From contig NC_088202.1 of the NCBI RefSeq assembly GCF_037126465.1, forward strand, positions 83,184,160-83,248,159: a DNA stretch of 64,000 bases, read 5' to 3'. The notes below the pieces were generated by a model, which worked only from the letters and a program-made list of their open reading frames with translations, was not told the origin of the DNA and ran no database searches. Within the stretch, counting starts at the first letter, position 1. Each line of letters starts with the position of its first letter. The position numbers and the translations under genes were made by a program. Positions 1,068-59,736 of this stretch are shown one piece after another. Source of the DNA: Ornithodoros turicata (Eukaryota; Arthropoda; Arachnida; Ixodida; Argasidae).

Positions 1068-1079
1068 TACAGGTTTTCC

Positions 1080-1205
1080 AGCTCATTTTAATCCATTGGT
1101 CACTCAATTTAATCCAAGTTCTACCCAATTTAATCCAGTGGTGAACCAAATTAATCCAGACACCAACCAATTTCATCCAAGCGCTACCCAATTTAATCCA
1201 AGCAA
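1080..1205. repeat. ~22-bp tandem repeat, left tip of foldback element
   Basis: About five units of roughly 22 bp with the core CAATTTAATCCA, each followed by a variable 8-10 bp. They lie immediately inside the terminal CAGGTTTTCC. The same units occur inverted at 5175-5300. Open frames here (repeated N-P-S-x-x-T-Q-F) arise only from the repeat. Confidence 0.8.
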
Positions 1206-1339
1206 CACGTGTAAATGTATTCAGTGTGTATTCAGTCATGCCATGACTGAGACTTTCATGATTTCGCCAATGTATCATGACTGGTTCAACAACCCCTGGA
1301 TTTTGCGTGTCATGCGGTGTTTTATGACTGCTTTATGTC

Positions 1340-2146
1340 ATTATGACACTTCATGATGATTTTCATGATATGCGCCATGAATCAATTTTATGGGACTATT
1401 GCTGCTTCAAACAGTGTCATACCGTGTTTTATGACTACCGATGGTCGTTAAGACATTCCATGACTATTTTCGTTTGTGCATTGAAGCAATTTGGGACTAC
1501 CGCTGATTCAAACAGTGTCATACAGCGTTATGTAACTACCGACGATCATTATGACATTCCATGACTATTTTCATGTTTTGTGCCATGAATCCATTTTATG
1601 GGACTACCGCTGCTTCAGACAGGGCCATGCAGTGGTTTGTGACTACCGACGGTCAATATGACATTTCATGACTATTTTCATGATATGCGCCATGAATCCA
1701 TTTTATGGGACTACCGCTTCTTCAAACAGTGTCATGCAGTGTTTTATGACTACCGACGGGCATTACGACATTCCATGACTATTTCATGGTATGTGTCTTG
1801 AATCAATTATATGTGACTACAGCCGCTTCAAAGAGTGTCGTGCAGCGTTTTATACTACCGACGGTCATTACGACATTCTATGATTATTTTCGTGTTATGT
1901 TCCATGAAACAATTTTATGGGACTACCAGTGTTTCCGACAGTGTCATGCAGTGTTTTATGACTAGCGATGGTCATTATGACACTTCGTGACTGTTTTCAT
2001 GTATGTGACATGAATCAATTTGATGGGACTACCACTGTTTCAAACAATGTCATAAAGTGTGTCATGACTACTGGCTGTCATTATGACATTTCATTAGTAT
2101 TTTCGTGATATGTGCCATGAATCAATTTTATGGGACTAGCGCTGCT
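1340..2146. repeat. ~106-bp tandem array, left arm
   Basis: About eight units with starts (ttttatgggactac or variants) near 1387, 1490, 1593, 1701, 1808, 1913, 2019 and 2127, giving a period of 103-108 bp. Units differ at scattered bases. The array resumes in the same orientation at 2777-2960 and 3504-3664 on either side of inserted elements, so it was continuous before those insertions. Confidence 0.85.
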
Positions 2147-2776
2147 TTAAAGTGCCACTCCGGATTCGGAAAACATCGTTTATTTTATTTAGTCCACGAA
2201 AAGAAGGTGACTCAAGGACTTTATATGGGAAATTTCAATCCTATTTGCGAACACTGTGCATTTCTGTCAATTTTTGAAGGTCTGCTGATCCTCCTCGAGT
2301 TTCGAGGACGTCGGGAACGGGTGACGTAACCAAAAGCCCGCAAATTGCGATGATGACATGTTCGAGAGAGGGCACTCTTCTCCAAGCCACGACGCCGGAG
2401 TCCGAGGAGGGTCACGTGGTAGAGAAGTCACGTGACGCTGACTGAAAAAGGCGAAAATGGGAGAGATGTCTTCCCAGTTCATTGTGTTTTCTCGAAGGTA
2501 GCAGAATATGTCATGTGCGGCTCTGCTTACGGAGCGCAAAAAGCGAGCCCCACGGAAGACGCCAAGGGCAACAACGTTGCCAGATGACAGCCGGGCGCTC
2601 CATCGGAGCCTAACATGATGTCACAGTTCTCAAAGATAAAAATTACTTTTCTCTGGCTTTCGCGTCACATAGAGCAAATATATTTTGCAGGAATGTAAAG
2701 TGAGAGAAGACTATTTCAGTAACATAACTTTGGTGGAATTCTGAAGACACGAGATTTAGTCTGCAGTGGCAATTGA
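2147..2776 (-). mobile_element. TTAA-type MITE, copy 1
   Basis: About 630 bp with inverted ends starting TTAAAGTGCCACTCCGGA on the left and ending in a decayed complement (..GCAGTGGCAATTGA) on the right. The flanks join to restore a 106-bp array unit (gctgctt..aaacaa), so it inserted into the foldback array. The interior matches the element at 12430-13064 in opposite orientation, for example the segment containing 'attgaaatttc' and the region with 'cacgtgac..cctcc'. A TTAA target and AAAGTGCC ends suggest a piggyBac- or Kolobok-type non-autonomous element. There is no coding capacity. Confidence 0.75.
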
Positions 2777-2959
2777 AACAACGTCGTAGTGTTTTCTGAC
2801 TACTAATGGTCTTTAATACATTCCATGACTATTTTCTAGATATGGGTCATAACTCGGCTTCATTAAACTATCGTTGCTTCATACAGTGTCACAAGTGTTT
2901 TAGAGACTACAGACGGTCATTATGACATTACATGACAATTTCCATTATAGGTGGCATGA

Positions 2960-3503
2960 ATCGGCATTATTTCGTTTCATTTCATTTGCTTAAAAACCCT
3001 CCACGTAATATCGTTATATAAGGGTGAGAAAAAGATACACAAAATAGAAATTTTTAGACAAGTTTGACTGTTACGATCGAAAGAACATTTTCTCGCAGGC
3101 TATCTGAAAGCTACAAAGACCTGGCAGTGCGACAACATCAGCTGGCAAGTCGTTCCATTCGCTAATACCCAGCCGCAGTGTGGAGTATTTACGTGTGTCT
3201 GTAACTTAGTTTTGATTCTAGCTTGTAAGGATGTTCTACACGACGTGAGGAAAAATGAGCAGGGGTAACATAGGAATCAAAATGATATAATTTATGTATA
3301 AGAACAAGCCCAGCTATTTTACGTCTCACTGCCAATAACGTAATTTTATAACGCCTTTTAATCTCGGACATACTTGCTGTGCGATCACGTATATTAAAAA
3401 TGAACCTCATAGCATTGTTCTGAACAAACTCTAGCCTATCACACAAATATCTCTGAGGACTCCACACACCGGCTGCATATTCCAATTTTGAGGGAACCAA
3501 CAT
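2960..3503 (-). pseudogene. 5'-truncated LINE, reverse transcriptase C-terminus
   Basis: The minus-strand frame 3189-3503 encodes the C-terminal (thumb/connection) part of a non-LTR reverse transcriptase. Motifs include SKLEYAAGVWSP, FVQNNAMRFI, TASMSEIKRR and RRKIAGLVLIHKLYH. These match the same region of the LINE at 20.8 kb, which has SKLEYSATIWDP and ASRRKIFRLSLLHKLYY. The 3' end at about 2965 is an AAATG-type repeat tail, typical of a retrotransposed copy. It is severely 5' truncated, lies inside a foldback array unit and cannot be functional. Confidence 0.8.
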
Positions 3504-5030
3504 GTTCTGGGACTACCGCTGCTTCACACGGTGTCCTATAGTGTTTTATGATTGGTGACGCTCATTATGACACTCCATGATATTTACATGATATCTACCA
3601 TGACCGACTCGATGTAACTCAGCTGCTTTACATCGTGTTATACAGTGTTTTATGACTATGAATACCTTAGTGACCATAGGTATTCATAAAACTGCATGAC
3701 ACTGCGTGAAGCAGCGGTATCTGCATAAATTCCGAGTCATGACCCGTGTCATGAAAATAGTAATGAAATGTCATAATGACCGTCGGTCGTCACAAACCAC
3801 TGGATGACCCTGTGTGAAGCAGCGGTAGTCTCATAAAATCGATTCATGGCACATATCATGAAAATAGTCATTGAACGTCATAATGACTGCCGGTAGCCAT
3901 AAAACACTGTATGACACTGTTTGAAACGGGTAGTCCCATAAAATTGATTCATGGCACACATCTGAAAATAGTCACGAAATGTCGTAATGACCGTCGGCAG
4001 TCATAAAACACTGTATGACACTGTTTGAAGCAGCGGTAGTGCCATAAAATCGATTCATGGCGATATCATGAAAATAGTCACGAGATGTCATATTGAACAT
4101 CGGTAGTCATAAAACACTACACTACACTGTTTGAAACACACGAAGTCACATAAAAACAATTCATGGAACATATCATGAAAATAGTCACGAAATGTCAAAA
4201 TGATCATCTGTAGTCATAAAACATTACATGACACTGTTTGAAACAGCGGTAGTCCCATAAAATTGATTCATGGCACATATCCTGAAAATAGTCACGAAAT
4301 GTCGTAAAACACTGCATGCCACTGTATGAAACAGCGGTAGTCCCATAAAATTGATTCATAGCATATGTCATAAAAATAGTCACGAAATGTCATGACCGTC
4401 GGTAGTCATAACACACTACTTGACACTGTTTGAAACACCCGTAGTCCCATTAAAATGATTCATGGCACATATCATGGAAATAGCATGGAATGTCATAATG
4501 ACCGTCGGCAGTCATAAAACACTGTATGACACTGTTTGAAGCAGCGGTAGTGCCATAAAATCGATTCATGGCGGTATCATGAAAATAGTCATGAAATGCC
4601 ATATTGACTGTCGGTAGTCACAAACAACCTGTATGACCCTGCCAGGCCTGCCTGAAGCAGCGGTAATCCCATAAAATGGATTCATGGCAGATAACATGAA
4701 AATAGTCATGAAATGTCATAATGATCGTTGGTAGTTATAAAACACTGTATAACACTGTTTGAATCAGCGGTAGTCCCATAAAATTGGTTCAATGCACATA
4801 TCATGAAATTAGTCATCGAATGACTTAATGACCATCGGTAGTCATAAGACACTGCATGACAGTGTTTGCAGCAGCGGTAGTCCCATAAAATTGATTCGTG
4901 GCGCATATCATGAAAATAGTCATGGAATGTCATAATGACTGTCGGTGGTCATAAAACACTATGACACTGTTTGAAGCAGCAATAGTCTCATAAAATTGAT
5001 TCATGGCGCATATCATGAAAATCATCATGA
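3504..5030. repeat. ~106-bp tandem array: left-arm remainder, palindromic centre, right arm
   Basis: The left-arm orientation continues from 3504 to about 3664. The sequence then turns round at a short palindrome (ATACCT ... AGGTAT, about 3668-3688) and runs as roughly 13 complementary units to about 5030. Units show the complement of the left core: 'gtagtcataaaacac', 'gaagcagcggtagtcccat' and 'gaaaatagtcatgaaatg'. A cruciform covering kilobases is possible in single-stranded DNA. No gene is present. Confidence 0.85.
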
Positions 5031-5174
5031 AGTGTCATAATGACAAAAAGCAGTCATAAAACACCGCATGACACTTCAAAATCCAGGGGTTGTTGAACCA
5101 GTCATGATACATTGGCGAAATCATGAAAGTCTCAGTCGTAACGTGACTGAATACACACTGAATACATTTACACG

Positions 5175-5300
5175 TGTTGCTTGGATTAAATTGGGTAGCG
5201 CTTGGATTAAGTTGGTTGGTGTCTGGATTAATTTGGTTCACCACTGGATTAAATTGGGTAGCGCTTCAATTAAATTGAGTGACCAATGGATTAAAATGCG
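5175..5300. repeat. ~22-bp tandem repeat, right tip of foldback element
   Basis: Inverted counterpart of the repeat at 1080-1205, with units containing TGGATTAAATTG. It ends 12 bp before the element terminus. Confidence 0.8.
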
Positions 5301-5314
5301 CGGGAAAACCTGTA

Positions 5315-5420
5315 GATCTTCCAGAGCACCGCAGTGGCAGCATCTGGGAGAGTCAACTTGTCTCAAGCGGTAACGCCACTGAGCTGTAAAAGCCACATCC
5401 AGTCCTCCATAACGGCAAAC
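5315..5420 (-). pseudogene. LINE ORF2 Cys-His knuckle fragment, proximal half
   Basis: Minus-strand translation gives FTAQWRYRLRQVDSP followed by C-C-H-C-G-A-L-E-D-L. This is the end of an ORF2 protein with a Cys-His knuckle after the RNase H region. The frame runs straight into the terminus of the foldback element. The continuation lies at 912-1067 on the other side of that element. Upstream, the copy is interrupted by a small palindromic insertion (5404-5587). More LINE-like sequence may extend to about 5720. Confidence 0.7.
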
Positions 5421-12241: not shown

Positions 12242-12429
12242 TTACGCTTTACGTATAACGTATACTTTCAATCTGCTAAATGTATTCTAATCCTTCCAAA
12301 CCTCCCTACTGAACCGGCAGCGCGATAAAGAAACACACGTGGGGGAGAGAGCGCATCGCGAGAGTGAGGGGGCCCATGTCCGTCTGCAGCGTGACGCGAC
12401 GCGGCTACACGGAGGCCCCAAAAGTGCGT

Positions 12430-13064
12430 TAAAGTGCCACTACGGACTAAATCTCGTGTCTTCAGAATGCTACCAAGATTATGTTACCGAAATCTCCTTG
12501 CACTTTACATTCCTGCAAAATATTTTGTCTCTACGTGACGCGTAAGCTAGATAAAACTAATTTTCATTTTTGAGAACTGTGACGTCATGTCATGCTCCGA
12601 CGGAGTGCCCGGCTCTCATCTGGCGACATTGTTGCCCTTCGCATCTTCCGGGGGCTCAGTTTCTGCACTCCGTTAGCGGAGCTCCACGTGACATACCATC
12701 CGACCGCTCCGACCTTGGAGAAAACACAAAGGAGGGAGAAGTGATCTCTCCCATTTTCCCCTCTTTCGATCAGCCTCACATGACTTCTCCACCACGTGAC
12801 CCTCCCCGAACGCCGGCATCGTTGCTAGGAGACGAGTGCCCTCTCCAGCACGTGACATCATTGCAGTTTGTGGGCTTATGATTACATCACTCGCTCGTTG
12901 CGTCATCGAAACTTGCGGAGGTTCAGCAGATCTTCAAACATTGACAGAAATGCACAGCGTTCGTAAACAGGATTGAAATTTCAAGTATAGAATCCTTGAG
13001 GCACCTTCTTTTCATGGATTAAATAAAATAAACGCTATTTTCTGAGTCCCGAGTGGCCCTTTAA
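12430..13064 (+). mobile_element. TTAA-type MITE, copy 2
   Basis: 635 bp with ends TTAAAGTGCCACTACGGAC and GTCCCGAGTGGCCCTTTAA, which are inverted repeats containing the TTAA target. Its interior matches the element at 2147-2776 inverted, for example 'ggactaaatctcgtgtcttc', 'gaaatctccttgca', 'cacgtgaccctcc' and 'ttgaaatttcaa'. The ends are better preserved than in copy 1. No transposase frame is seen. It is probably mobilised in trans by a piggyBac/Kolobok-type enzyme. Confidence 0.8.
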
Positions 13065-13860
13065 AGAAGTGCTATCGCATTTAAAATACACAGGCTCTGA
13101 AGTTCCCCTCGCGCCATTCAACGACCAGAAAATGCTTGCGCGACGGGGTCGTTTCGCGAAATATGTATACACCAGTGGCTATTACCGTGGAAGAGGAGGC
13201 ATCCCCGTGAATGCTCTTGAGGGATGCACGCGTTTCTATACTTGCCGAGTAGCTTTGCGGGACTAATGGATTTCGGTCGGAGAAAGCGAAGTAGGCGCAA
13301 AAGAAGAGGCACAGAAAGAGAATACCAAGTTGGGAGCCAGAGGACAAGATAACCTGATCAACAAAGAAACGCGTGGAAAGCACCTGACTTCCTCTTAATG
13401 GGTTTGGACTTCCTTCCTAAAGGTAAAGATAAAAACGTCTTCTCAAGTGGGTAGGAGAAATAAAAAAAGAATCTTGCCCTATCGAGACGATTGGATGTTG
13501 ACGTCATTATACGTTGACGTTCGAAGGTTTAGGTTATTACATAGTTGTTTTGCTAGATGATAATGACGTACATTCCTTTTAAGGTGACTGCTGTTCATTC
13601 TATATTTGCAGAGTGTCTGCCTCGATGTACGGACGGTGAAAGCGTTAGAGAAATAAAATATGTTTTGAACTATGAAAAACGCATGTCACAATACTCGTTT
13701 GTAAACGTCTCTTTGTTGGTTCTGACATGCCTCGTTGGCTTTCGTTCTTCTTTTATATCACCAGACAGCTGCGGATTGGGAGCGTCACCGGTGTTAGGGT
13801 TTTTTTCCATTCCAAATGCATAAACTGTCTGCGGCGTGTGCTATTTGCCTCGACACACAC
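13065..13860. other. Anonymous stretch
   Basis: No gene was recognised. Opposing frames 13069-13266 and 13081-13383 look like shadows without domains. A (CA)n run at 13853-13869 marks the 3' tail of the LINE fragment that follows on the minus strand. Confidence 0.3.
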
Positions 13861-20236: not shown

Positions 20237-20816
20237 TATAGCCGACTCTAGGATGGGACAAGCGCAATATTTGCCTACATCACATTTCAATAATAGTACT
20301 AGCCCTCGCCCTAAGAACGAAAAAAAGTCACTCACTGCTTTGTCTCCCTCCCCGGCGAACATTATCAATTATATTACCTTCTCGTTTCGTTCAAAAAAGA
20401 ATACACCGTGCTAGTCATGTTAGCGATGAGTGTGTTGTACCTTTAGGCGAATGTACCACTATGCTGTGTACACAGTGTTGTCTGACGGTGGTTGTAGCGC
20501 ATACATAAAACATGGCGTCAAAAAGGAAACTGCGACAAGGGAAAGGTGTCACAGACAAGTTTACTGCTGTTTGAGAAAAGTGCACTTGTTATGAGAAAGG
20601 TGATCTTTTTTCATCTTTGCTGCTTTGTTTTGCTAAAACTTTTTGTGACTTCAGAGTTTACGAATACAAAAGTGCTGGCGTGTCTACAAAAGCGCCTTTA
20701 TTTGCATATTCTGTATTGCAATCTGCTTATTTTCAAAATAAGAAAAGCAGACACTCCTAGTCGTTATGCCACGCTACCCAGTTACCCATTGCCTCTGTGA
20801 GCAGCAACAACAACAA
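20237..20816. other. Anonymous stretch upstream of LINE
   Basis: No gene was recognised. A short (CAA)n at 20805-20818 lies exactly at the 5' truncation point of the LINE. Confidence 0.3.
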
Positions 20817-22500
20817 CAAATAAAGCATGCCGGAGCAGTGGTTTTGACGGAATCAATACGAAGTTTTTGAAGAGCACTGTACAATACACATCAATCATAC
20901 TTTCCAAACTGTTCCAGCAGTCACTCAATACGCATACAATTCCTAATGATTGGAAAGTCGGGAAGGTGGTTCCAATACACAAATCCGGGAGTAAATCTTC
21001 GCCATCTAATTATCGTCCTATTTCCCTCACCAGCATCCCCTGCAAATTGTTAGAACACGTTTTATTCTCACATTTAGCGTCTTTTCTTGAAACAAACCCG
21101 TTTTTCTCTCACGCACAAGATGGGTTTCGCAAAAAATTTTCCTGTGAAACACAACTTCTTTCTTTCACTCACAAACTTCACCTAGTTTTGGATCGTAATT
21201 CATCTTCTGCCTGTATATTTCTCGATTTCTCTAAAGCCTTTGATAAAGTACGTCATAAACTTCTATTACTTAAACTAAGTAAACTAAATCTTGACCATAA
21301 TCTTCTCTCTTGGTTGCATTATTACCTGTCTAACCGTTCACAGTACGTCACAGCTAACGGCTATGACTCCACGCCTAGCCCAGTCCACTCAGGTGTTCCA
21401 CAAGGTTCCGTCCTTGGTCTCCTTTTGTTTTTAATCTATATCAACGACCTACCTAACTGTGTTTCCAGTAACATTCATTTATTTGCGGATGGTTGTGTAA
21501 TTTTTCGTCAAATCACTAATCCTAACGATATTTTTTTGTTGCAACAAGATTTAACTGCTATCTCTGAATGGTGTGACACTTGGTTAATGAAATTAAATAT
21601 TACTAAATGTAAAGTCTTGCGCATATCTCGAACAAATATGTTGCCTCCTGATATTACTCTTGAAAATGTTTCATCATACAAGTACCTTGGTCTTCATATA
21701 ACTTCACCTCTATCCTGGTCGTTTCACATAAAGAGCATAATTAACAACGCAAACCGCATGTTAGGCTACCTTCGTCGCAACTTCTCTTCAGCCCCCCTAT
21801 GCCTAAAAACATTGCTCTATAAGTCTCTTGTGCGTTCAAAATTAGAATACTCCGCCACCATATGGGATCCGAGCTCAGCGACACTATTTAATGCAATCGA
21901 ACTTGTCCAAAATAATTCTGCGCATTTCATTACTGGTAATTATTCTCGCACAGCGAGTATTAGTACGATAAAGAACACTCTTGCCTTACCTTCCCTTGCT
22001 TCACGTCGTAAAATTTTTCGTTTATCTTTACTTCACAAACTTTACTATGACCTGCCTTGTTTGCGTGGTGAACTTCTACCTCCGCCCACTTACATTTCAT
22101 CTCGGATTGATCATCAACATAGATAGGCCTAACGTCATACCACACCAACACGTGCCTGCAATCTTTCGTCCCCCGCACATCTGCTGAGTGGAACCACCTT
22201 CCTAGTGACATCATACACATTCGCGATCACTCCCGATTTCGCTCTGCATTATGTTCCTTTTTTGACTCGCAATAACACCACTTAGTGTCATATCAACCTG
22301 TACACCTTAATATAAACTCTCACAACTCACTGGCTCTTGTACTATACACTTCATCAATTTGTTACATTTTAATTTAGCATCTTGATTTACTGACCTTTGT
22401 TCACTGTTATTTATTACTGTTTTGTATTTTCTTTTCCCACTCCCCTCTGTAATGCCCAACGGGCCTTGAGGGTATAATAAATAAATAAATAAATAAATGA
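20817..22500 (+). pseudogene. Jockey/CR1-like LINE with reverse transcriptase, 5' truncated
   Basis: This is the longest coding remnant. Translation starts mid-protein (SSGFDGINTKFLK, RT block 0). The RT palm follows: PNDWKVGKVVPIHKSG, NYRPISLTSIPCKLLE, AQDGFRKKFSCETQL, FLDFSKAFDKV, HSGVPQGSVLG. At 21479-21493 the catalytic F-A-D-D box reads F-A-D-G (second Asp codon is GGT), so polymerase activity should be lost. The thumb follows (WLMKLNITKCKV, YKYLGLHI, SKLEYSATIWDP, RRKIFRLSLLHKLYY). A frameshift near 22115 separates the last block (FVPRTSAEWNHLPSD), which ends about 22276. The endonuclease domain is missing. The 3' UTR contains 'cgggccttgagggtat' and ends in (AATA)n at about 22477-22499. 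The copy is young enough to keep about 430 open codons. Confidence 0.9.
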
Positions 22501-28746: not shown

Positions 28747-30363
28747 ATGCCATCCTATTGTTGCGTTCCCTACTGCAAGCAGAAGGGCTACGTACACGAA
28801 AACGGGAGCAAAGTAAGTGACGTGTTTGAACAGGAAAGAATAGAGACCTTGTACCCCGTGCAGTTTGCCGACATTTCTTTGTTTATCCTAGGTGTCGTTT
28901 CATAACTTCCCGAAATCGGCTGCTGCTTACAAGAAATGGATAATCGCAATAAAACGCGATGAGGGGAAACTGTTTCGTGTCACACGTTCGACACAAGTGT
29001 GCTCGAGACACTTCCTGGAGTCTGACTACGTCCAGAACGTCGCTAGCGGGCACAGATATCTCCACAGTTGGGCAGTACCATCTGTCTTTGACTTCTGCAA
29101 ACCTAAGACGCTAAGGAAACCTCCACGTCAGCGGGAAGTAGCAGCTGTACTGCCTCTCACCACAAAAGACCCTCAAGAGCCTGTGCAACCGCTACATGAT
29201 ATCACCGCGTCCGAAGAAAACCTTCCACCTGAGTGCACGCAGGAGATGGAACAACTGTGTGAGTGTGGTTTATCCGACACTGTGCTGAACTCAAAGATGC
29301 ACTGGACAAAACTGTGAAAGACAATGACGCATTAAGGAAATGTTTGAAGGAAAAAACTGAAGAAGTGTACCGGCTCAAGGCGCAACTTGAAACAGCTGAA
29401 GCAAAATGCAAAACCATGGAGGATCAGCAGGCTCCATTTAGCATTAACAAGTTTAAAGACTCTGATGAAGATGTGCGGTTCTACACGGGTCTCCCTTCGT
29501 ATGCACATTTCAGATCACTTCACGAATATGTTGGTCCTGGAGAAAGTGGGAAAAACATAGTGCTGTGGCAAAGTACTGCTTCTAGTGGTGACAATGTTGG
29601 GCGACCACGCAAGTTGAATACAGAAGACCAGCTGTTCCTTGTTCTCATCAAACTGAAAGTTGGGCTATTCCACAAGCATCTGGCTCACTTGTTCAACGTG
29701 TCATCGGGTACTGTGTCCAGGATCTTCTTATCCTGGATTAACTATCTCTACATTCAGTTGTCGCAGCTACCGTTGTGGCAACCACGCAGTTTTGTCGATG
29801 AGACAATGCCTCTTGCATTTAAAGAAAAGTACCCAACAACCAGAGTAATCATTGATGCTACCGAACTGCAATGTGAGGCGCCAAGCTCGTTTGTAACACA
29901 GTCTGGGACATACTCCACGTATAAGTCAGCGAACACATGTAAAGGTTTGGTTGGTGTTGCACCAAATGGCCTGCTAACATTTGTGTCTGAGCTGTTTATG
30001 GGATCCCTATCCGACAGAGAATGTGTTATTCGAAGTGGGTTTTTAGAAATGCCTTTTGACACACACGACTCAGTAATGGCTGACAAGGGATTCAGAATTG
30101 CTGATTTACTGCATGCTAAAAATGTGTCATTGAACATCCCTCCATTTCTGACGAGAGGACAGTTCTCCCAAGAGGAAAACCACGAGACACAAGATATTGC
30201 GGCACTCCGAATTCACGTCCAGAGGCGGATTCAAAGAATCAAGACATACCATATATTTGATCATTCTATCCCCATTTCTTTGGCACCAGTCTCTAATCAG
30301 ATCTGGACAGTTTGTGCGATTTTGAGCAACATGCAGCCTGCCATTATTAAAGCTGCAGATTAG
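28747..30363 (+). pseudogene. THAP-domain DDE transposase, catalytic Glu lost
   Basis: Exon 1 (28747-28812) encodes MPSYCCVPYCKQKG and ends at a GTAAGT donor. The acceptor at 28890-28891 opens exon 2 (VSFHNFPKS). Together they give a C2CH THAP zinc finger: CVPYC, the core Trp in YKKW, CSRHF, and an AVPSVF end. A coiled coil follows (DNDALRKCLKEKTEEV, QLETAEAKC), reached only after a frame change at about 29255-29290 (indel or very short intron). A helix-turn-helix region (LFNVSSGTVSRIFLSW) precedes a DDE_Tnp_4-type core: first Asp in VIIDATE, second in VMADKGF. The third position reads HVQRRIQRIK, where relatives have H-V-E-R, so the catalytic Glu is Gln. The enzyme would bind element ends and cut DNA in the nucleus. 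This copy should be catalytically dead but may still bind DNA. Confidence 0.8.
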
Positions 30364-30544
30364 AATTTAACACTTCAATTTAAGAAAACTCTTGTCTTGT
30401 ACTCTTGTGACCCACTCTAAATATCATGCATGTGCATAAAGGTACTGCACAATCTTGTAGTTTGTATATATATTTATTCATCACCAATGACCGTTACATG
30501 CAGGTTATCCAGCATTATGTATGCAAACACTTGGCAAAAGGTAT

Positions 30545-32525
30545 CTACATTGTACGTAAATATGGTAGCATTATGTTAAAATAAAATGACTTCAGTTTAT
30601 CATACAAAACCTTCCACTCATCACTGACAAACCTGATTCTCTCAACAATGATAAAACTTCTTCCGTACACCACAAAATCACCCCAAGCTAGTCCAGAAAT
30701 TGCCATCTGGCCCAATATCTGGTAGTAATAAGGATGATCCCTCTTGAGTGTTGCCGTGTTCTCGTCAACGCGAAAACAGAACGCCTCATCCTTCAGTTCT
30801 GTCAACGTCTTGTCACACAGAGAGTAGGGACATTTTATCTCCACCACACCATGAGGCGAGTCCTCAGCAGGATCGAAAACAACCCTGTCTGGTGTGGCTC
30901 CAAGCCACGGGCAGGATGGGTCGACATATAACCCACATGGCACGACAGTAACATTACGGCCCCTGCTACGAAGTACTTCTTGGTATCGCTGTGCAGCAAC
31001 TGGCTCATTTGCAGTGCCGTACCTAAAAGAGAAAATAGCTATTTGGCAACCTATTTACCAAAGCAACACAGGAGACCTAGCATATACACAGGATTTCAAG
31101 AAATGTATCGTAACGTGTAAAGATTCCACCATATTTTGTAGTTTGTTTTTTTATGTAAGGTCTCCCAGCTGCTTCACATCCTTTGCAAGCAGGTGCTTTG
31201 CTATTTCGTGCTCAAAATTGTAACATACCTCACAGCTCGAACTCGTGAGAGGTCTTTCCTTGTTGTTAGGGCTTGCAAACCCTTGTGCGTCCAAACCTGC
31301 CTCTTCATGACGGTGCCAAAATTTGAAGCAGTTAGGCGCAGTCCACGCTCCTTCAACCACGTTTCGCTTTTCGTCTGTTGCCGTGTGTTCTTCTCCAAGC
31401 TGTGGGCTGTCTCTGGGGAAAGGCACAGTGCCTGCAATTTGAAAATAATGTATATATGTGTGTACTAGTGCATTCACTTCTTTTTTTTTTACCTTTACAG
31501 TTAGTGTCTTCTTTCAGGCTTGGGGGCACAATCCATGCTTGACTATGTATAAATGGTATGTATTCCTGTGGCACCATGTGTTGGTTGTCACTAACACTAG
31601 ATATATCTGGAGAGATTACCACACCATACCCAAATGGAACCATGGGCTGCTGATACACCATAGGTGATAAGGCCGACGATGGTCCAAGTTTTGTTTTCTT
31701 GCATTCAGACTGAGATGCTTTCAACAACGCTCGTCCAAACAGGCTCCCCTCGTTCAGTCTGGCCAGGGATTCCCCGAAGGTTGCAGCGGCATTCTGCTGT
31801 GCTGTGAAAGCTTTCGGATTTCGTCGCGGGTCATAGAAGCGGCACAAGATTGGATTCTCGAGTCCACCTTCGCGTACACTTCGCCAATCCACTGTTTGCA
31901 CAGATGTACCCCTTATCTGCCGTCCTCTCGGTACTCCCCAGCGCTGCGGCAAGTCCGTAACAGAAATTTCTGGCGGAGCTTCACTGAAACCTTTTTCCTG
32001 TAGCAAGATGACACTTCGCAACACTCCTAAAACATGATTGCACGATCCAAGGCCTGCTGGACATTCGCACTTCCCACGTACAATGTTTCCGCTGATGTTA
32101 ATTTCAACTGCAACACTGTAAGGTGGTGCAGTCTTCTTCTTGCTTCTGTAACATTTGGCCGTCACGTAGAACATCCCAAATCTGAAGCAGAAAGTGCGAA
32201 TTACGTTGGGTACGTAGACAATGACAGTTTACATGCGAAACCAAAACCATGTGCGTTATAATCGAGGCGACGGCTCGAACGAATGTATATTTAATGGTAG
32301 GAAATCACTATACAGTTACAAACATTTTCGTGCTTACCGCTCCTCTGAGTAGTTGGCCTTCACAGATTGCATATCGACGTACGATTCCACCAGGAAATTG
32401 TAGCTTCGCTCCATGTGCCGCTCAGTCGACGACCTTTCTTCGTGGTACGCGCGAAGACAGTTCATAGTAAGCAGCGGTAGACGTGACAAGGCAGCCTCCC
32501 ATCCAACAACTGGGAAAGCTGTCAT
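30545..32525 (-). CDS. SWIM zinc-finger / YqaJ-type nuclease of the transposon, copy 1
   Basis: Four minus-strand exons: 32338-32525 (start MTAFPVVGWEAAL; donor GTAAGC), 31493-32181, 31229-31431 and 30545-31022. Exon 2 holds a SWIM finger (CECPAGLGSCNH, CxCxnCxH). Exons 3-4 hold the YqaJ/lambda-exonuclease-like domain: RLTASNFG, RYGTANEP, WLGATPD, VEIKCPYS and YYYQILGQM, which supply the expected acidic and E-x-K metal-binding residues. The family resects or nicks double-stranded DNA, and its role in transposition is inferred. Exons 1-2 and 3-4 join in phase. At the exon 2/3 junction the phase is off by one beside a 10-A run, so an indel is likely there. All core residues are present. It is convergent with the transposase. 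Whether it is expressed is unknown. Confidence 0.75.
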
Positions 32526-32640: not shown

Positions 32641-34517
32641 TTCGGTTCAATGTTGACCGACTTTCTGAAAGGGAGTATTGGGGATAAAAGGAGCGGTCGA
32701 ATCATTACCGAGCCAGGAAAAAAGGCTTTTTCAGAACCCCGAACAGCCGAGTAGCAGATGATAGCGGAGTAGCAGACAACATTTCTCTAGACCAATCCGC
32801 GAGCGTTCTCCCTCGTTATTAATAAAAGAAAGGGAAACTACACCAACCTCGAGGCTTTGAAACGCTTTGAAAGAATAAATGAGAACATCATCACCTAGCT
32901 TGGCACCAAAACCTTGGCTTGGCCTTGAGACTTCGCTTTTGACTGGTACTGCTCTTCACCACCGTTGCGCACGGTCGCTTTTTACCACGTACTTCAAATT
33001 CAGTTTCTGCGATAATTATGACTCTGTGGTGTGAATTACTTCGCATGGTGCATCTTACTGGCCTACTTAACAGTTTTATAGGAAGAAAACAGGGTGTTAA
33101 AAGTGACTTCTGTGCTATTTTATGTGCCGAGAATGTTGTGTCACTACTTCTGGATCCCCTAACGCCCAGCACATTTACGATATCGACTTTTCTGTTTTCG
33201 GAACGGTTCGAGAGCAGATTTTAATGTCTATCTTCGGGATACACATCGTGTGAAGTGCGTGACGATCTGCTCGGTATCAAAGAACATTCCGATCCGGTCG
33301 AGGCGCATCATTTCTTCATACATAAATACGATATATTAGCACAGGAGGGCAAGGGCGCAGGGGAGCTGGCACATAATTACAACCGTGAAACCCGAGACAC
33401 GGAAGAAAAACAGAAGACGACACACGATTGTGTCGTAATATTGGCACAGCACGGAAATCGTAATAATCCATTCGCAGGTATATCTTGCACACATCCGCAC
33501 GCAGCCGAGGGATCCGACCATATTTAACGCCGAATGTACGCGTGACGTGACATAAAAGATAGTATGTCATGCGATCGCGTGTATCTTACGTTTCTTGGGG
33601 CGAAATTGAAGTTGACCGCCAGAATGAGAACTTACCCGGACTAGGGTGTGCCGCCGATGATGGAGAAGGCAGGGAAGTTACTGGAGACGCTCCATTCGAA
33701 AATGTTGTTAGTTGGAACGACACTTGCTCAAGATACTATTCTAATTTCCTTCTTGTTTCCTGTACGCACTATACCTGTGAAAGAAAACGTTGCCACGCCA
33801 ACTTGTTCTGCGCATAAAAATTTACAACACATTATCTGCAGGCATGCATAACTGTAGCGCTTTCTGATCGCCGTAAAATACATACCTATACGCATAGTTC
33901 CGTTTCTTAGAGCACATGTGCGCAAGCATCTTCAAAGCTAAGTTATTCCGACGGATGTTACCTATCGTGCTCTCGTGCCAGCCGAAATTGAATAGCGACA
34001 CACCCTGCAAGCGCCGGAACTGGAGCAGTCACGTTATTTTGTTTCTGAATATTGCGTATTCGCAACCAGAAGCTCGTCGCTATTTTTGGTATGCAGATTG
34101 CGAATGCTACAGCGGAGATAATAAAAGCTCTTTCACGGTGCATGGAAGCGCGGCGTGCGGGCACAGCACTGTAGTGTAATACTTGCGCTATGCTCCCAAA
34201 ATTTTCTTCGTGAGTGTTCATAATGTTATCGCTGGTGCCGGTAAAAGAACATAGAGACGGATCGTTTTGACGGCGTTCTATTAGACTATTTTCGTTCGCT
34301 CTAAACGTTCCTTTCTGTCTTTACGTCCTGCCGGATGGCGCCATTAAATCTGGTATTGTTCAGCTGCACCCGATGGCGTTCATGTAAATTGTACACACGT
34401 CCTTTCTCTTCTACAGGGGAGGATAAGGTGAGGTTTCTTTGTGTCTGTGTGCGTGTGACGTGCATATGTGCGTGCGTGCGTCCATGTGCAGGCGATGGCG
34501 GGGGCGAAGCTGAAATA
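32641..34517. other. Anonymous stretch
   Basis: No gene, RNA or terminal repeat was recognised. Frames at 32891-33172, 33255-33527, 33569-33817 and 33916-34179 are short, overlap antisense frames and lack domains. 34440-34495 is GTGCGTGC-rich. Confidence 0.35.
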
Positions 34518-34683
34518 CGAGGGGTGTTCAAGTCAAACCGGGACTTTCTTTCTCCTGAGTGTACAAATGGCTCGCGCTACTTCTTTTTCGTCATTTTCAC
34601 ACGCGATAGGCCTCCGCGTTCACCACGTGGTGGTCCAAAGTTTGTGCAAAACAGAAGACACGTGCTGGACAAGGTGGCCGACA

Positions 34684-37277
34684 ACGAGGTGAGCGCGCAC
34701 ATCGAACAGCGAATTGTCATGAAATTTCTCGTGAATGAAGGCGTAAAGTCATCTGAAATTCAAAGAAGACTTCAGGCTCAGTATGGCCACGCTACACTTA
34801 GCCGCAGCAAAGCGTTTGAGTGGTGCAAACGGTTCCGAGACGGCCGTACATCAGTGCAGGACGATCCCGGCTGGGACGGCTCAGAGCCCAGTGTGAAAGT
34901 TCCTGAGAACATCCAACTTGTGGAGCGCCTGATCCTCAAGGACCGACGGATAACATGTCTCGAACTGGCTCGAAAGACGGACCTTTCTGTGGGAACGTTG
35001 AACACTATCATTCGTGAACACCTCCAGTTTCGGAAAGCCGGGCCTCATCACCAAAGGAGTCCTCCTCCTACACTCTAAGAAAAAAAGGTGTAATTTTCTA
35101 CCTTTTGGGGTAGAAGTGTGTTGTTACAGATTCTCAACCCTTTTGGGGTAAAAACACTTCTACCCCTTAATTTCTACCACACTGGTGGAACAGTTCTACC
35201 TCTGAGTGTGAAGAAAATTCTACCCTGTTAGTGGCAAAATTCTGCCCCTACATGGTTAACTGTTATTCCTCTGGGGGGTCTATCTTTTCTCTTCATATGG
35301 AAGACACCTCTACCCCAAAGATGAGAAATATCTCCCCACCTTGACGCTAAATATTCAACCATTCCCGGAAGACAGTTCTACCGTGAGTAGAACTGTCCTC
35401 CCTTATTGGAAGATAATTTTTTACCCGAAATGGTAAGAATCTCTTCTATTATTGGTGCTGCGTCTACCGGTGGCATATAGACCTTCTAGAGAAATATTTA
35501 CTCCGCCTTTCATGAAGGACGTCTGCCCTTTTGAGAAGAACTTGACGTACAGTATTTGCGTGGATGAGATAGAATATATAGACAACTGTTACTGGTCACA
35601 GCATTTTATTACCACGTCACAATTGGAATAGTGCACTTGCGCTTACTAATGCGAAAGGTACATCCATATTGAAGAAGCCTGAGCACGTAGACACGAAAGA
35701 AAACAGGACACAACACAGACGACTCCATTGTTGCATCCATCAGACTGCACAGCACTTGCATGGACTGTCTTGCACATAAATTCCACATGCATTTACCATA
35801 ACAAGGGCATCGGGATAACTTCTGAGGGCTTGACGTTTCACACTGCTGTGTCACTCTAAATACACACGAATCTTCGTTCGGTGTGTAATATCTACCCGGA
35901 GGAACACGTGGCAGGACAGATGAATTCAACTGAAATGTAAATGGCATTAATAGAGCATTTAAGATAGCGATAAATAATAACGACGGTACATGTTTCACTC
36001 CTCAGAAATATGTTTACATGCGTGGTTCCCTCAGAAATAAGCATACAAAAAGAAGACGGCTATGCAGTGCACAAAAGCCAAGCAAAAAAATAAAATAAAA
36101 ATTAAAAAATAAATAACACAGAGCACATCCAAAAAACCAAGACTCGAGCGATGAGTGCCTTCTCCCATCAAACAGTGGCTTACCGTATGGCCCCGTTTCT
36201 TCATTTTCGAAGTGGATCCTGTAATCACATCCGGCGGGCGCTGATAACGTGCCGTGCTAAAGTTGTCATGGTGACCTGCGTGTATTACACAAACGCATTT
36301 GGTGATATTGCAGTTTCATAAGATGCTGAAAAAGTGTCAGACGACATGCCGATCAACCCGAACACGCAAAACACATCTCATCACTGCATATAAGACGCTC
36401 GGGAAGAAAAATCTTGAATATCAAAATTACTCACCTGATTCTGTCCTAACACCATCTTGCTTATGTTCATGTCATTGCAGCTGAACCGATAACACCTTCC
36501 ACCACGAACCGGCCGCACGCATGGCCTTTGGTGCAGCAATGTCCACGTGCAAACCGACAGTCTGTCACTTTCAGCTTTCGTCTCTATACTGACCCCTTTT
36601 GCACAATCAGCGATTTCGCGCACTGAGCGCAGACACTCTGTGTTTGGTCGCTCTGGCTAATCTCTTGAACAGTGACCTTCAAAGCTGAACCAAACGCTTT
36701 TGTGCGCAGGATTAGTAAACCTCAACTATTGTCGTCGCTTGAGTGACTTCATTTACACTTCCATTAGTGACCCTGCTATGAAACACACAAAAAGAAAAAA
36801 GATTCACTTGAACCCTAGTAGTGATAAGATTGCCACAGCGGTTCTACCGTTAGGGGGAGAGAGTTGAGTAAAAGGGCAGAAACAGCACAACTTCAGCCTG
36901 CAGTCGGTAGAGGGAAAATAAATCGGGGAGAACTGTTGTGCTTCTACCCGTTTTCAACCTTTTTTTCTCAGAGTGTACAGGACAATGCACGCCCGCATAC
37001 CGCACATCTCACGACACGCACCTTACAGGAACTTGGCTGGGAGTTGCTGCCACATCCCCCTTACAGTCCAGACCTCGCCCCCAACCATTTCCATCTCTTC
37101 GGTCCACTGAAAGCATTCCTTGGGGGCCGCCACTTCAGCTGCGACGACGAGGTCAAGAATGCGGTCCGATCATGGCTGCTACGCGCCGGTAAGGATTTCT
37201 ACGCTGCTGGCATCCAAGCCCTCGTGAGACGCTGGGACAAGTGCATTAGTGCAGCTGGAGAATACGTTGAAAACTAA
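34684..37277 (+). pseudogene. mariner transposase, N- and C-terminal pieces
   Basis: The N-terminal piece (34690-35066) holds paired-like helix-turn-helix regions: EQRIVMKFLVNEGVKSSEIQ, SRSKAFEWCKRFRDGRTSVQ and DDPGWDGSEPS (relatives have DDPRPGRP-like). It also has SVGTLNTIIREHL. The C-terminal piece (36978-37277) starts QDNARPHTAHLTTRTLQELG and continues PHPPYSPDLAPNHFHLFGPL, carrying the second and third Asp of the DD34D triad. About 125 residues including the first catalytic Asp (T-G-D-E-T-W in relatives) are missing. The 1.9-kb element sits exactly at the junction. No protein could be made from the two pieces. The frame that starts at 36864 is a chimera with the inserted element. Confidence 0.9.
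35071..36975. mobile_element. TA-flanked element (1905 bp) inserted in mariner
   Basis: Ends CACTCTAAGAAAAAAAGGTG and CCTTTTTTTCTCAGAGTG are inverted repeats of ~22 bp. TA flanks both sides (35069-35070, 36976-36977). The left 400 bp contain about ten diverged 'ttctacc' motifs in both orientations, including a perfect 11-bp-stem hairpin at 35371-35396. The minus frame 35609-35998 (129 residues) and others have no recognised domain, so it is non-autonomous or its enzyme is unfamiliar to me. The TA target suggests the Tc1/mariner/ITm group. Confidence 0.75.
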
Positions 37278-38845: not shown

Positions 38846-39308
38846 GAAACATCCGATGTCATCATCACTTCTCCTTCAGTTATTGTTGTTGTTGTTGACG
38901 CACAAAGAGCAGAGAGTTTCCCTCTCTTTTATTATATTCAATTCAAACAATAAAGTTTGCACCTATAACATGGCAGACATGGCAACAATGTTTGGCAATG
39001 TGTTCTGCGTGACCTGACGAACTAAATTACTTGTTTTCTGTCTTTCAGGTTGACAAATGACTGACCTTATCAACAGTTTGGCAAATGGAGGGGTCGAGTT
39101 AGTGCAAATATTGTTGCAGCTATAATAGCCCATGTATTCTGGAGCGGTAAAAGCATTCCACGCGTACCTTCAGGCTCCTGAACATACAAAATGCGAAGGA
39201 TTCAATCATAAAAAGTTACTTTTACACAACGTGGAGACCGCACAGTGTACGGCTGACCGTGGAACTTCGAACAACCCTGCGATAGATCTTATAGCACGAA
39301 AATATATA

Positions 39309-40178
39309 CAGGGTGTCCCAGAACACGTGTCATTCAATTATAATTAAAAAACTACACCACCTAGAGTCACGCGGTCAATGGCATTTGTTCTTACTGGATT
39401 TTTGTCACCTCCTGATGTGAATGTCGTGTAACGTAAGTTTAATTATGTAAATTTTTGCGAGCTTAAGTCGGAAATTTGCCAAGTAAAAGTAACTTTTTTA
39501 CCCCACCAATGTGAAGAGCGTGTCTAATTTAAATTAATGGTAATGATAATTGACAGGGGTATTCAGGAGCTATCCCATCGGAAAAAATAGCCGAACATCA
39601 TGCTCTACGGAGCTCCCACAGAATAGCGCACGATGAATTTTTCGGCGCAAGATTTGTCAGTCCGACGAAACGAAACCCAGCCCACCCCGTCATCGCAGAA
39701 AGAGATAACACAGGCATGTCTTATCACGTCCGACTTTCGCTTGGATAATGCTTTCCCTCTCCCAATTTTAGGAACTTACTTTTTCTACTATCACTCTGTG
39801 GGCTGGCTTTGGAACCTCCTTTCGTCGGACTCAGAGCGATTGCGCTCAAAAAGTCATCGCGCGTTATGGTCCGGTGCTCCGAAAAGCATGATATTCGGCT
39901 ATTTTTTCCGATGGGATAGCTCGTGATTATCACTGTCAATTATCATGAATTTGAGTGAGTTCGGCACGCTCTTCATATTGGTGGGGTAAAAAAGTGACCT
40001 TTACTTGGCAAATTTCAGAGTTCAGTTCGCAAATATTTACATAATTAAACTTAGGATACATGACATTCACATCAGGAGGTGGCAAAAACCTAATAAGAAC
40101 AAATGCCATCGACCGCATGATTCTTGGTGCCGTAGTTTTGTTATTATAATTCAATGACACGTTTTCTGGGACACCCTA
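39309..40178. mobile_element. Foldback MITE with ~355-bp arms
   Basis: 870 bp. Arms 39309-39675 and 39825-40178 are inverted copies (estimated 85%), separated by a ~150-bp loop. Tips are CAGGGTGTCCCAGAA and TTCTGGGACACCCT, flanked by ATATA-rich sequence so the TA duplication cannot be separated from the target. No coding capacity is present; the opposing frames 39633-39926 and 39724-39939 lie in loop and arm. The tip motif is shared with a partial element ending at 45015. Confidence 0.85.
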
Positions 40179-40179
40179 T

Positions 40180-42320
40180 ATATAAGTGTGTACATCTGCT
40201 CATATGTTGTTGTCGCTATAGCAAGTGTTGCTTTTCGTATGTTTAAAAGCACAGGGGTTTTCCGAAACGCTACAAGCCTGCGGCAACGAGGTGATGATGT
40301 ATATCTCATCTCTGCGTCTCGGACACAACGCTTCCGGTGTGCAGTGTAAGCCACGATAAAGAAATCATCATTTACAGTAAAGCCTGGAAAACGGAACGTG
40401 TTACATTGTACGATCATCCATATCTCGAATGTTGCTTCTGTATGTGGGTCCACCACGAACTGATTCCGCCACGTGTACTTAATGTAGTGATGGATGGATT
40501 GTGTCTAAGACAAGAAATTGAGGTCATTTACTACTGACTGTAACACAACAGTTGGAAAGACAACCTAATTTATTAAGGTACTAATCGCTCCTACGAACTT
40601 GGCTAAATTCAACAATAACGTGACTGGTCTTTCAGACGTTATCAGCACACAGTGTCGTATACCCAGACTGAAAGACCCGTTGTGCGGTCGGTTAACGTCT
40701 CAAACGTTTCGAATAGGATTGACGATGGTCCACTCGAGTCAGGCGTAACACGAGGTTACCGTGACAGTCCTGGTAGCTTTGGTAATGCGGGCTCTCGTCT
40801 CTCTCCCACATACCAGTGGTGTTCTGCAGACCAAGGAGTTGTAGAACTTTGCAGGCCATGCTATCAACAACTGAAATATGGCAGTCCTTGAATGGAGTTC
40901 CTCGTTCAAGATCGGCTTCGATTTGACTTTCCCTGTAGTGGCCGGCTGCTCCATCAGATGGGGATAACGAGGTCTCCAAACTGCTTGGTGTTGGAGTCAC
41001 TAAATTTAATAAGTGAGACTTATTCAGTGACTTTACCTGGTCTGAGGTGAAATCGAAGATAGAAAATACGCTCTTACGTCGTATGTGTGCTACTCTGTCG
41101 CTTGCAGTCCCCTTCGGTCTACGCTCGGGATTCATTCCGTCCATTTAATATTGTGACGGTCTTGAGCGCTCGGCTCTCGCTTCTTAGACGGTGTGCGCCT
41201 GGATGTTGTGATATCATTCCTTACAGATATCGGGGCGGACAAAGCTCTTTGTTTTCTGTTCTCCCCCCCCCCCCCCCCCGTTGTTCCAGCCCACCGGTTG
41301 TGTCGTTTTTCTGTTGTGCCCATAGCTCAGTCAGGCCTCTGACTGAGGCTATCTCAGTAGATATGTTTTTGAGGACGTATCTTTTCGGTTCCTGCAACTG
41401 GTCAAAGTCCCTGTCACAAACGTCTTTGTTAAATTTGTTTGTTTGTAAGGAAAAAAAAAAAGAAGAGGAGAAATTGAACTCGTCTCCCGACTTGTTCTGC
41501 TACTCCTAATACAAACGTCTTTCTTCGAGTATATTCCCGGCTATTTTACTTGAGCCGCCATCCATATCCATGGAGCATACTTGTCCATATCGTTTTTCTT
41601 CTTCCATTTAAATTTCCAGTTTTCTATTTTGTTCGCCTGTTCATGTGTTCCAGCCTCAGCATGGTTACTTACCGTGACGCCGCCCACGGCAAACGTTCGA
41701 AATAGATGCTTATCAACTATCTGCTTATCTGACCTGCTGCCAACCGGAGTTTGCTGTTTGCATAAACGCTTTCTAGCACACATCTTACTAAGACCGTCCG
41801 AATCCGAATGTGAATGCGAGACTAAACTCCGTTTATTATATGTACCTCCGATTATCAGTCCGCCTAAAATGGTGTCTATGGTCGTACTAGTAGTGGCTTC
41901 TAAAAGTTAGGACCCTTCTTTCCCTGGCTAAGCTTTCCTTTCTGTCCTTTTTTTTTAAATAAACATATCCCCCATTCTTCCGTGACACATGAGGGAAGGC
42001 CTCTTTCACGTCTCATTGTCATGAGGAACTAGTCTGAAATCTCTGCTGTCACTCTCATGCACCTAATATCGTAATGAAGTACTGTGAAAATCGTTGATGC
42101 AATTCTTAGTGCTGAAAAAAGTAAGGCTAACTCATCCTCATGCTGCTGCATTTGGAGCAGCTGTATAAACTATGACAGTACTATCAAAGGAATCGCATGG
42201 CAGCATTATTGCGATAATATCGGGCTCCTGATTTTGGCATTGTACAGAGAGATAGAAGAGCGAGACGGACAGAAAGACATGATGATGAGGACGACGACAC
42301 AGAAGTGTTGCAGCACAGCC
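40180..42320. other. Stretch with one unassigned long frame, a LINE tail and a small hairpin
   Basis: The minus frame 40692-41144 (150 residues, starting MDGMNPERRPKG) is the only one of note. It has no domain I recognise and is overlapped by another minus frame. A hairpin 'gtcacta..cagtgac' lies at 40996-41033. A LINE 3' tail (ccctggctaagctttcc.., aaataaacatatcccc) lies at 41915-41975 on the plus strand. A C-run is at 41265-41279. Confidence 0.35.
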
Positions 42321-42795: not shown

Positions 42796-43295
42796 GTGAC
42801 GCGATGCCGCGTGGATCAAATCAAAGTACGGTAGCCCAGTTGTCGGAACCATTCGAAGATGACGAAGATGTTCCATCGCGCACCTGCCTAAGATTCCGGA
42901 ACTGTAGTCCGGGATATTCATTCGCGCAGGTGGTGTGCTGCGTGCTACTGCCCAGAAAACGTAGTGCGCGTATGATACCTAAATTAAACGGATTTCTTTC
43001 TCAGTTTGAGGCTGTAACTGTTTAGATTTTGAATAGAAGAGGATTCACGCTCATCTAGTCCAATTCCGCATTTGAAATAAAATCATACGTGGAACACTCA
43101 ATCGTAATTGGTGGGGAAAGCGCTACGTCAAAATGACGTAAAGTTAGAGCGCGGGGCGGAGCTAAAATGCGAAAGAGTGCAGTGAATATTTCATCCGTAT
43201 GCAAGTGCCTTTTGTTTTTGAGCGTTAGTAATTGCAAGGAGTTTTCACTGACTAAGTTCCAATAATATAACACAAAGAAATGAGCACCTTTTGTA

Positions 43296-44283: not shown

Positions 44284-44314
44284 TACCTGTTTACGGCCCC
44301 TTTAATTGCGGGAA

Positions 44315-45016
44315 ATTTATTTTTGTCAATTGAACTTTGAAAATCGCCAAGCAAACCCCACTTTTTTTTTTACAGAAATATGAAGTCCTCCATGGATAAC
44401 CGCAGACCCAACAAAACATATGCACAGTATCGCAACAGAAATAGTCGAAAAAATTAGTAAAAATTCGACTTTAGTCCCGCCTGCTTGATTTGCGCAAAGA
44501 ACCGCGCGCGAAATGTGCGTCTAGAGGAGGAAGTGTCCTCGCCTTCATGTGTTTTGCCTTCTTTGTGATACGACAGTTTTGTTTTCTTTGTGATAAGACG
44601 GTTGTCACCAGCATCAAGGTGAAAGCAGGAGAAAGAAAGGTAAAAAAGGAGGCGGGAACAGTTCCTCCTCTCTGCGCATCTTCCGTGCGCTGTTCTTTGC
44701 GACAATGAAGCAAGAGGGGCTAAAGCGTAATTTTTACTAATTTTTTTTCGGCGATTTCTGTTGCGATACTATGCATAGTTTTTGTTGGGTCTGGGGTTAT
44801 CCGTGAAGGTCTTAATAGTTCTGTAAGAAAAAATTGGGGTTCTCTTGGCAATTTTTGAAGTTCAACTGAGAAAAAATCTTCCTATTAAAAATTGTCCAAA
44901 GCCTTCCTAAATGACGGCAAAAGTTTCCAGCGGGTAACTGCCGAAAATCCCAGAATCCACCGGCAACCACGTCGCCAGTTATAATTTTTTATCACGTTAG
45001 GCGAAACACCCTGTAT
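44315..45016. mobile_element. Foldback MITE, left tip truncated
   Basis: Arms at about 44315-44520 and 44660-44890 are inverted copies (for example 'ggataaccgcagacccaaca' against 'tgttgggtctggggttatcc', and 'tatcgcaacagaaat' with its complement). The right side continues to a tip GGCGAAACACCCTGTAT at 44999-45015. The matching left tip is absent, so the left end was lost where it abuts the TTAA element. Frames on both strands at 44454-44713 are arm shadows. Confidence 0.65.
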
Positions 45017-59735: not shown

Positions 59736-59736
59736 C

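Follow-up and report, generated by a model that had tools for sequence, protein, structure and literature searches.

The window analysed here is a stretch of 64,000 nucleotides (assembly GCF_037126465.1, contig NC_088202.1, forward-strand positions 83,184,160 to 83,248,159) whose host is very probably the soft tick Ornithodoros turicata (Argasidae). Near its start lies a foldback transposon (window positions 1070–5312; 4,243 bp) whose matching ends are followed inward by inverted arrays built from a ~107-bp unit. It is complete, with CAGG...CCTG ends, and is devoid of any gene. We consider it highly likely that the window holds a non-autonomous member of an IS630-Tc1-mariner foldback family of soft ticks, whose transposase would bind TTAATCC and insert in the TA of CTAG. 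This reading is built on the tips, arrays, and terminal domains common to gene-bearing and gene-less copies, on the family of the transposase, on the CTA/TAG found at recognisable tips, and on a single empty site that fits a TA duplication.

Structure of the element

From the outside inward, each end consists of the tip CAGGTTTTCC, TTAATCC repeats spaced by 21 bp from position 19, and an array of the ~107-bp unit; outside the arrays, the phased ~21-bp TTAATCC repeats form a terminal domain of their own. The exact tip TACAGGTTTTCC is present at 1068–1079 (+) and 5303–5314 (−) and nowhere else in the window. The TAs of the presumed 2-bp target duplication are found at 1068–1069, preceded by C at 1067 and with one paralogous empty site, and at 5313–5314, followed by G at 5315; the context is thus C-TA at the left tip and TA-G at the right. 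The left terminal domain (1070–1305, +), with the tip CAGGTTTTCC and the 21-bp subterminal repeats, shares its tip with other copies and is complementary to the right terminal domain and its tip (5077–5312, −); compared over 1066–1305 and 5077–5316, the two are inverted and 95% complementary across 240 nt. Six TTAATCC repeats, one of them mismatched, are exactly 21 bp apart at 1088–1199 (+), while five are phased at 21/42 bp at 5183–5294 (−), and these are candidate transposase binding sites.

The right arm of ~1.64 kb is made up of its terminal domain and an uninterrupted array of ~13 units by length (3668–5075, −), and Tandem Repeats Finder reports opposite-strand 107-bp arrays between 3671 and 5075. 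The left arm extends from 1070 to ~3670 and begins with eight Tandem Repeats Finder copies of the 107-bp unit (1307–2151, +), but two foreign inserts break up its array and leave short stretches of it between them and on the inner side. Insert A (2152–2785, +) is followed by a continuation of the array at 2788–2962 (+), placed by alignment to L001 3219–3393 (minus 431), then by insert B (~2966–3512, −) and the innermost array piece (3502–3658, +), which in the alignment runs a few bases into insert B. A short palindrome (3653–3690) marks the junction of the two arms. The first-pass annotation, made from the letters of the window, had described a foldback element whose tandem-unit arms meet at a small palindrome and end in matching, TA-flanked tips, and all of this holds. 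It had also described two arms of about 1.4–1.6 kb as arrays, but the left arm is not a single unbroken array.

Insert A is short and transposon-like, with TTAA-type flanks (the right flank here being TTGA). Probably this is a small transposon in its own right, with a duplication of the TTAA type, because its second window copy (12429–13080) has TTTAA at both sides and because it is missing from the family copy L019. Insert B is a fragment of a non-LTR (long terminal repeat) retrotransposon, with 41% identity over 99 amino acids (E 1e-17) to the C-terminal part of a reverse transcriptase open reading frame (ORF) in the same window. That ORF, at 20801–22126, encodes a non-LTR retrotransposon reverse transcriptase (RVT_1).

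Copies of the family in the tick genome

The element is one copy of a dispersed family. A whole-element search of the O. turicata assembly (1.07 Gb, 379 contigs) returned at least 293 matches, and copy counts are lower bounds since 40 of 1,824 candidates were scored. A 28-nt tip pattern, which itself includes the C of CTA, occurred with up to two mismatches at 569 places (296 + 273), whereas the reversed-pattern control gave 0, so the other copies with the same tips that the first-pass annotation called for exist in number. We read 20 places from the whole-element matches and two further gene-bearing places. Elsewhere in the assembly, 12 copies had both tips and differing flanks; together with that of the window, these 13 two-tipped copies range from 4,077 to 6,845 bp. 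Among 100 exact tip places listed, 21 convergent tip pairs lay within 15 kb, seven of them (313–341 bp) the size of miniature inverted-repeat transposable elements (MITEs) and fourteen 3.9–10.1 kb long. The two MITEs that we read measure 334 and 317 bp from the C of CTA to the G of TAG; both include the terminal domain, and neither has a match to the 107-bp unit. The 107-bp arrays therefore look dispensable for movement, as these two ~330-bp MITEs have the same ends without them.

The terminal domains of the two arms are 83.5–100% identical across copies. Homogenisation of the arms within a copy, expected under conversion or snap-back copying, was not seen in the 13 copies: the left arm matched the right arm of its own copy best in one of 13 for the terminal domain and in none of 13 for the array, and mean identities within and between copies were 95.3 and 94.1% (terminal domain) and 88.6 and 85.3% (array). 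The similarity of the arms thus seems to be inherited with the element and not renewed in each copy. Arm identities of 100% in L015 and 99.5% in L017 suggest recent insertion, although youth judged in this way is a weak indication because related copies are equally similar. Four foldback copies (L021–L024, C1:160–164 Mb) have an identical outer flank at one end, which suggests that the element and its surroundings were probably duplicated after insertion.

Target site and duplication

Because the search pattern of the target logo required CTACA[GT]G, the share of tips with C was counted from a pattern-free tip alignment. When tips were aligned through the terminal domain in 21 loci (that of the window among them), CTACA[GT]G was present in 34 of 36, and the remaining two were decayed. 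Of these 34, L021–L024 contribute one each, and these four have a common flank and are not independent. The base preceding CTA was A or T in 33 of the 34. Both ends were read in 16 elements, namely 13 foldbacks, two MITEs, and one sister-family element. In every one of them, the tips had a direct repeat of TA only, tested to 12 bp, and no more than two bases matched outside CTA/TAG.

Empty sites were sought by joining the flanks of each element with CTAG and searching a 361-kb pool of sequence. The window-flank probe matched a paralogous unoccupied site, L018:5607–5365, with 84% identity over 241 probe bases, where the site reads GTGCT-CCAG-ATCC against GTGCT-CTAG-ATCT in the probe. The four target bases at this site fit a TA duplication in CTAG and not an insertion without duplication. 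The TA target duplication proposed in the first-pass annotation, which is that of the IS630-Tc1-mariner group, is thus borne out by the 16 elements and, more thinly, by one empty site. A second candidate, a match of the L012 flank to L017:8445–8295, lies in a minisatellite, ends one base past CTAG, and was left out of the count.

The transposase gene of larger copies

Copies without inserts A and B led us to the transposase. Larger members of the family carry one recognised gene, for a DDE transposase of the IS630/Tc1-mariner type, between the inverted arrays. It was present in seven of the eight loci examined (L015, L017, L020, L025, L026, L037, and L038), while L014 has the inner flank of the gene-bearing loci but lacks the gene. 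In L017 (C6:15496492–15503031), the arrays and tips of the family enclose an open frame of 378 codons (374 counted from the first Met). A genome search with the transposase (110 of 253 candidates scored) gave at least 20 rows at ≥84% identity, corresponding to 14 places, several of them partial. Three full or near-full transposases (L017, L037, and L038) had no stop in the matched frame.

The L017 protein matched DDE_3 with 79.6 bits (cutoff 28.6) and the NCBIfam IS630 model with 111.9 bits (cutoff 100), and the homologues P0001 and P0003 also exceeded the latter cutoff. D184, D267, and E300 form its catalytic triad, and 32 residues separate the second D from the E. Among 29 homologues, this spacing was 32 in 12 and 33 in 11, one of which has V replacing E; the remaining six rows were distant or truncated, with single rows at spacings of 34 and 35. 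We used an AlphaFold model of P0001, a 73% relative of the L017 protein, for fold comparison (mean predicted local distance difference test score 78, predicted template modelling score [pTM] 0.57). By E-value, the best Foldseek matches of this model were to Mos1 (1.7e-12), with a whole-chain template modelling (TM) score of only 0.37–0.42, followed by the Sleeping Beauty catalytic domain (E 2.8e-8, TM 0.67 by target); the Sleeping Beauty and Metnase catalytic domains matched at TM ~0.6–0.7 by target. The model has N-terminal helices and gave weak matches to Pax paired domains, and an HTH_32 match of the transposase fell below the curated cutoff. We conclude that the transposase belongs to the IS630-Tc1-mariner group and carries the three acidic residues of a DDE_3-type enzyme. 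The tick host and Tc1/mariner-type affinity suggested by the first-pass annotation accord with this result, as relatives that share its tips and arrays encode the enzyme.

Where the organism was named, homologues at least 46% identical to P0001 came from ticks (Rhipicephalus, Dermacentor, Hyalomma, Ixodes, and Ornithodoros), with metagenomic ones interspersed. Other named homologues were from Harmonia (29%), Strongyloides (28%), a fungus (27%), and a bacterium (40% over 17% of the query only). P0004, from O. turicata, is 100% identical over 355 amino acids to the translation of C5:66829281–66830345.

Sister families and phased TTAATCC repeats

The same genome contains transposases 55–60% identical to that of the window family, and the surroundings of three that we read represent two further families. 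The tips of one were read at both ends, and those of the other at one end. At C5:66821003–66833211, a 12.2-kb element with the gene inside has identical 13-nt tips at both ends in CTAG context, and its arms are composed of a different 107-bp unit and are 96% identical over the longest inverted match. The L039 element (C1:225027421 onward) has the tip of the window family, a 39-bp array, and a 5.06-kb palindrome (95.7% identity) with two inverted transposases, the second of which is frameshifted. L039 together with L045 (C1 ~225034576) shows LTR-retroelement-like sequence in the right arm of this two-transposase palindrome. C3:47116628 is a second copy of the C1:225027421 family (94% amino acid identity), with a 39-bp array and a partial palindrome in the part that was read. 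In the tree, the transposases of the window and sister families fall in one supported clade of 18 rows (100/99).

The phasing of TTAATCC is common to the three families, with 6, 10, and 9 sites at steps of 20–21 bp or multiples thereof (in the family with nine sites, four are exact and five have one mismatch), and the two MITEs likewise carry TTAATCC at such steps. The exact motif is absent from the three arrays checked. The TTAATCC repeats behind the tip are probably transposase binding sites. Between the array units of different families, similarity was not significant (20 of 300 shuffles reached the score), and homology of the two 107-bp units is accordingly not claimed.

Proposed mechanism and origin

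We propose that a single-protein transposase would recognise the phased subterminal TTAATCC repeats of any element with such ends, cut at the CAGG/CCTG tips, and act by cut-and-paste chemistry of the Tc1/mariner type. The element would then be pasted into the TA of CTAG, with duplication of the TA. Gene-less foldbacks and MITEs could be mobilised in trans by the transposase of the gene-bearing copies. The palindromic form probably arose from two inverted element copies that were joined, kept their outer ends, and act as one unit. Such a two-copy origin is suggested by L017, where the other side of the interior holds an inverted remnant (78–86%) of the 3' portion of the gene, and by the L039 element, which has both genes. 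Repeated transposase sites in long ends have a tested parallel in Galileo, where the THAP domain of the transposase binds near the end and further sites lie in the tandem repeats of the long terminal inverted repeats (TIRs; PMC3688188).

A broader proposal, which we hold to be possible but short of probable, is that there is a hitherto undescribed tick clade of the IS630-Tc1-mariner group (DD32E/DD33E, CTAG) in which the array-armed palindromic foldback is the normal body plan. Its elements would be, or derive from, head-to-head dimers, and sites phased at 21 bp (two helical turns) would drive multimer assembly while the ends stay exchangeable between very different elements. If this is true, at least three superfamilies of transposases (Mutator-like, P, and IS630-Tc1-mariner) have each acquired foldback architecture independently.

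Several observations weigh against our reading of the element. The matched frame has a stop or break in four of the seven gene-bearing loci, and the tick relative P0004 scores 93.4 of the 100 bits needed for the IS630 model. The placement in the IS630-Tc1-mariner group comes from profile and fold matches; the fold match was obtained with a model of a relative at a pTM of 0.57, and a sequence search of solved structures with the L017 protein gave nothing significant (Sleeping Beauty, E 0.39). As to the target, the L018 empty site itself has CCAG, without TA, and only one of the 16 joined-flank probes found a junction-spanning empty site in the 361-kb pool. Flanks alone cannot separate a duplication from a TA-including end, because TA is palindromic. 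As to the joining of two elements, the right end of L039 was not seen, being interrupted by the retroelement-like insert.

Alternative explanations

The alternative that survives best, though we think it improbable, is that a mariner-type transposon took up a 107-bp satellite from the genome, so that the arrays are not the product of the element itself. Two families with an equal period but without significant unit similarity, and a third with a 39-bp unit, speak for it, since dissimilar units across families mean that arrays may be gained or replaced. However, a 312-base probe of about three units gave at least 231 matches, and among the matches listed (40 of 429 candidate places scored), clusters of the unit were shorter than 3 kb, many of them fell at places known to hold elements of the foldback family, and no free satellite array was seen. 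The link to a free satellite that the first-pass annotation had raised is, on these matches, unsupported so far.

A foldback of the Tc1/mariner superfamily as such is already known in Tc4, and an element like Tc4 of Caenorhabditis elegans would have an equal overall shape. According to PMC11071193, Tc4, which occurs in C. elegans and tardigrades, is a fold-back element of the TcMar superfamily with a near-identical palindromic target context, but it differs in having a TNA duplication in CTNAG and a DDD triad, neither of which is found in the tick element. We regard a Tc4-like element as quite unlikely here: all 16 elements have TA, never TNA, as their direct repeat, the catalytic triad ends in E where Tc4 has D, and the tick protein matches the IS630 model.

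More remote still is an element of the Drosophila Foldback (Mutator-like) or Galileo/Tetris type, whose true duplication of 7–10 bp was missed. The long TIRs of tandem units that define the foldback structural class are present in the window element. Drosophila Foldback has a 9-bp target duplication and Galileo has a longer one as well, whereas only TA is found at the tips of the tick element. The absence of any 3–12 bp direct repeat, with at most two matching bases outside CTA/TAG in all 16 elements, contradicts this alternative, as does the DDE_3/IS630-like transposase of the gene-bearing copies. Galileo (P superfamily; PMC3688188) and Tetris (~220-bp TIR units, 8–10 bp duplications, and no apparent coding capacity; PMC4079207), both from Drosophila, do resemble the tick element in their long TIRs with tandem repeats.

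Long inverted repeats are generally prone to assembly error, but a misassembled inverted duplication has next to no probability, given the many copies with distinct flanks on different contigs, the 12 further two-tipped copies, and terminal domains that are not uniformly 100% identical. Hardly any weight can likewise be given to a non-autonomous ISL2EU-type element, to which two DDE_Tnp_4 and YqaJ gene pairs in the window and the 2-bp duplication of ISL2EU would point, because the exact tip occurs nowhere else in the window and the gene found in copies bearing these tips is of the DDE_3 type.

Relation to known systems

Bacterial IS630 has short ends, whereas the tick element is eukaryotic, 4–12 kb long, and provided with foldback arms of tandem units. 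The two have in common CTA/TAG at the tips, and three of the proteins examined (L017, P0001, and P0003) score above the cutoff of the IS630 model. The preferred target of IS630 is TA in CTAG, according to the title of Tenzen and Ohtsubo 1991 as given in the reference list of PMC2170065. With the Tc1/mariner families (Tc1, mariner, maT, Visitor, and others), the tick elements share DDE_3, the TA duplication, and a fold nearest to Mos1 and Sleeping Beauty, but they differ in their foldback arms and in the 32–33 residues between D and E in close homologues. Nine Tc1/mariner families listed in PMC8533490 have spacings of 34, 35, 36, 37, 38, 39, or 41, none of which fits the 32 of L017. Judged from sequence comparison, the tick element is a member of the group by transposase and target and a foldback by structure, its transposase differs from that of Galileo, and it would work like Tc1/mariner.

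As far as the open-licence literature shows, the tandem-array arms, the phased binding-site-like repeats, and the CTAG/TA target are new in such an element, as is a tick clade in which the window family and two more have array arms, two of the three having been read at both ends. In that literature, no paper on a "DD32E" transposon was found, and no IS630-Tc1-mariner element with tandem arms appeared in titles and the starts of abstracts. Tc6 is a possible palindromic element of C. elegans, for which the same literature search gave nothing. The window element probably represents a tick family that is new and whose target is the one reported for IS630 of bacteria, and it ties the long-puzzling foldback shape of DNA to a well-understood, mariner-like family of enzymes. 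Foldback elements are known for chromosome rearrangement, and their moving enzyme is often a guess because many lack a gene. One genome here holds open transposase frames, gene-less foldbacks, ~330-bp MITEs, a two-transposase palindrome, and sister families that differ in their arm units while keeping the tip; with this range of forms, the origin of long tandem-array ends becomes testable with one small transposase.

Other repeats and transposon remains in the window

Transposon-like gene pairs at 28892–31054 and 50922–51994 each consist of a DDE_Tnp_4 transposase (+) and a YqaJ-like nuclease (−), the first with an adjoining THAP domain; this is the arrangement of ISL2EU elements. The ORF at 36828–37277 had no Pfam match. 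Remains of a mariner element with a Mos1-type helix-turn-helix are present at 34305–35078. At 43293–44286, inverted repeats of 323 bp, 96% identical, flank a DDE_3 fragment (below cutoff), and this is a decayed Tc1/mariner-type element with well-kept ends. A candidate TA-type foldback or MITE at 39303–40184 has inverted repeats of ~370 bp (83%) starting near TACAGGGTGTCC. In addition, a palindromic repeat forms a self-complementary stretch of ~556 bp (77%) at 44320–44875, and a ~0.98-kb repeat occurs as an inverted pair (47851–48824 and 55225–56207; 91% identical, ~6.4 kb apart). A 132-bp tandem repeat at 59736–60220 comprises 3.7 copies at 94%, with a period that keeps the + strand frames open.

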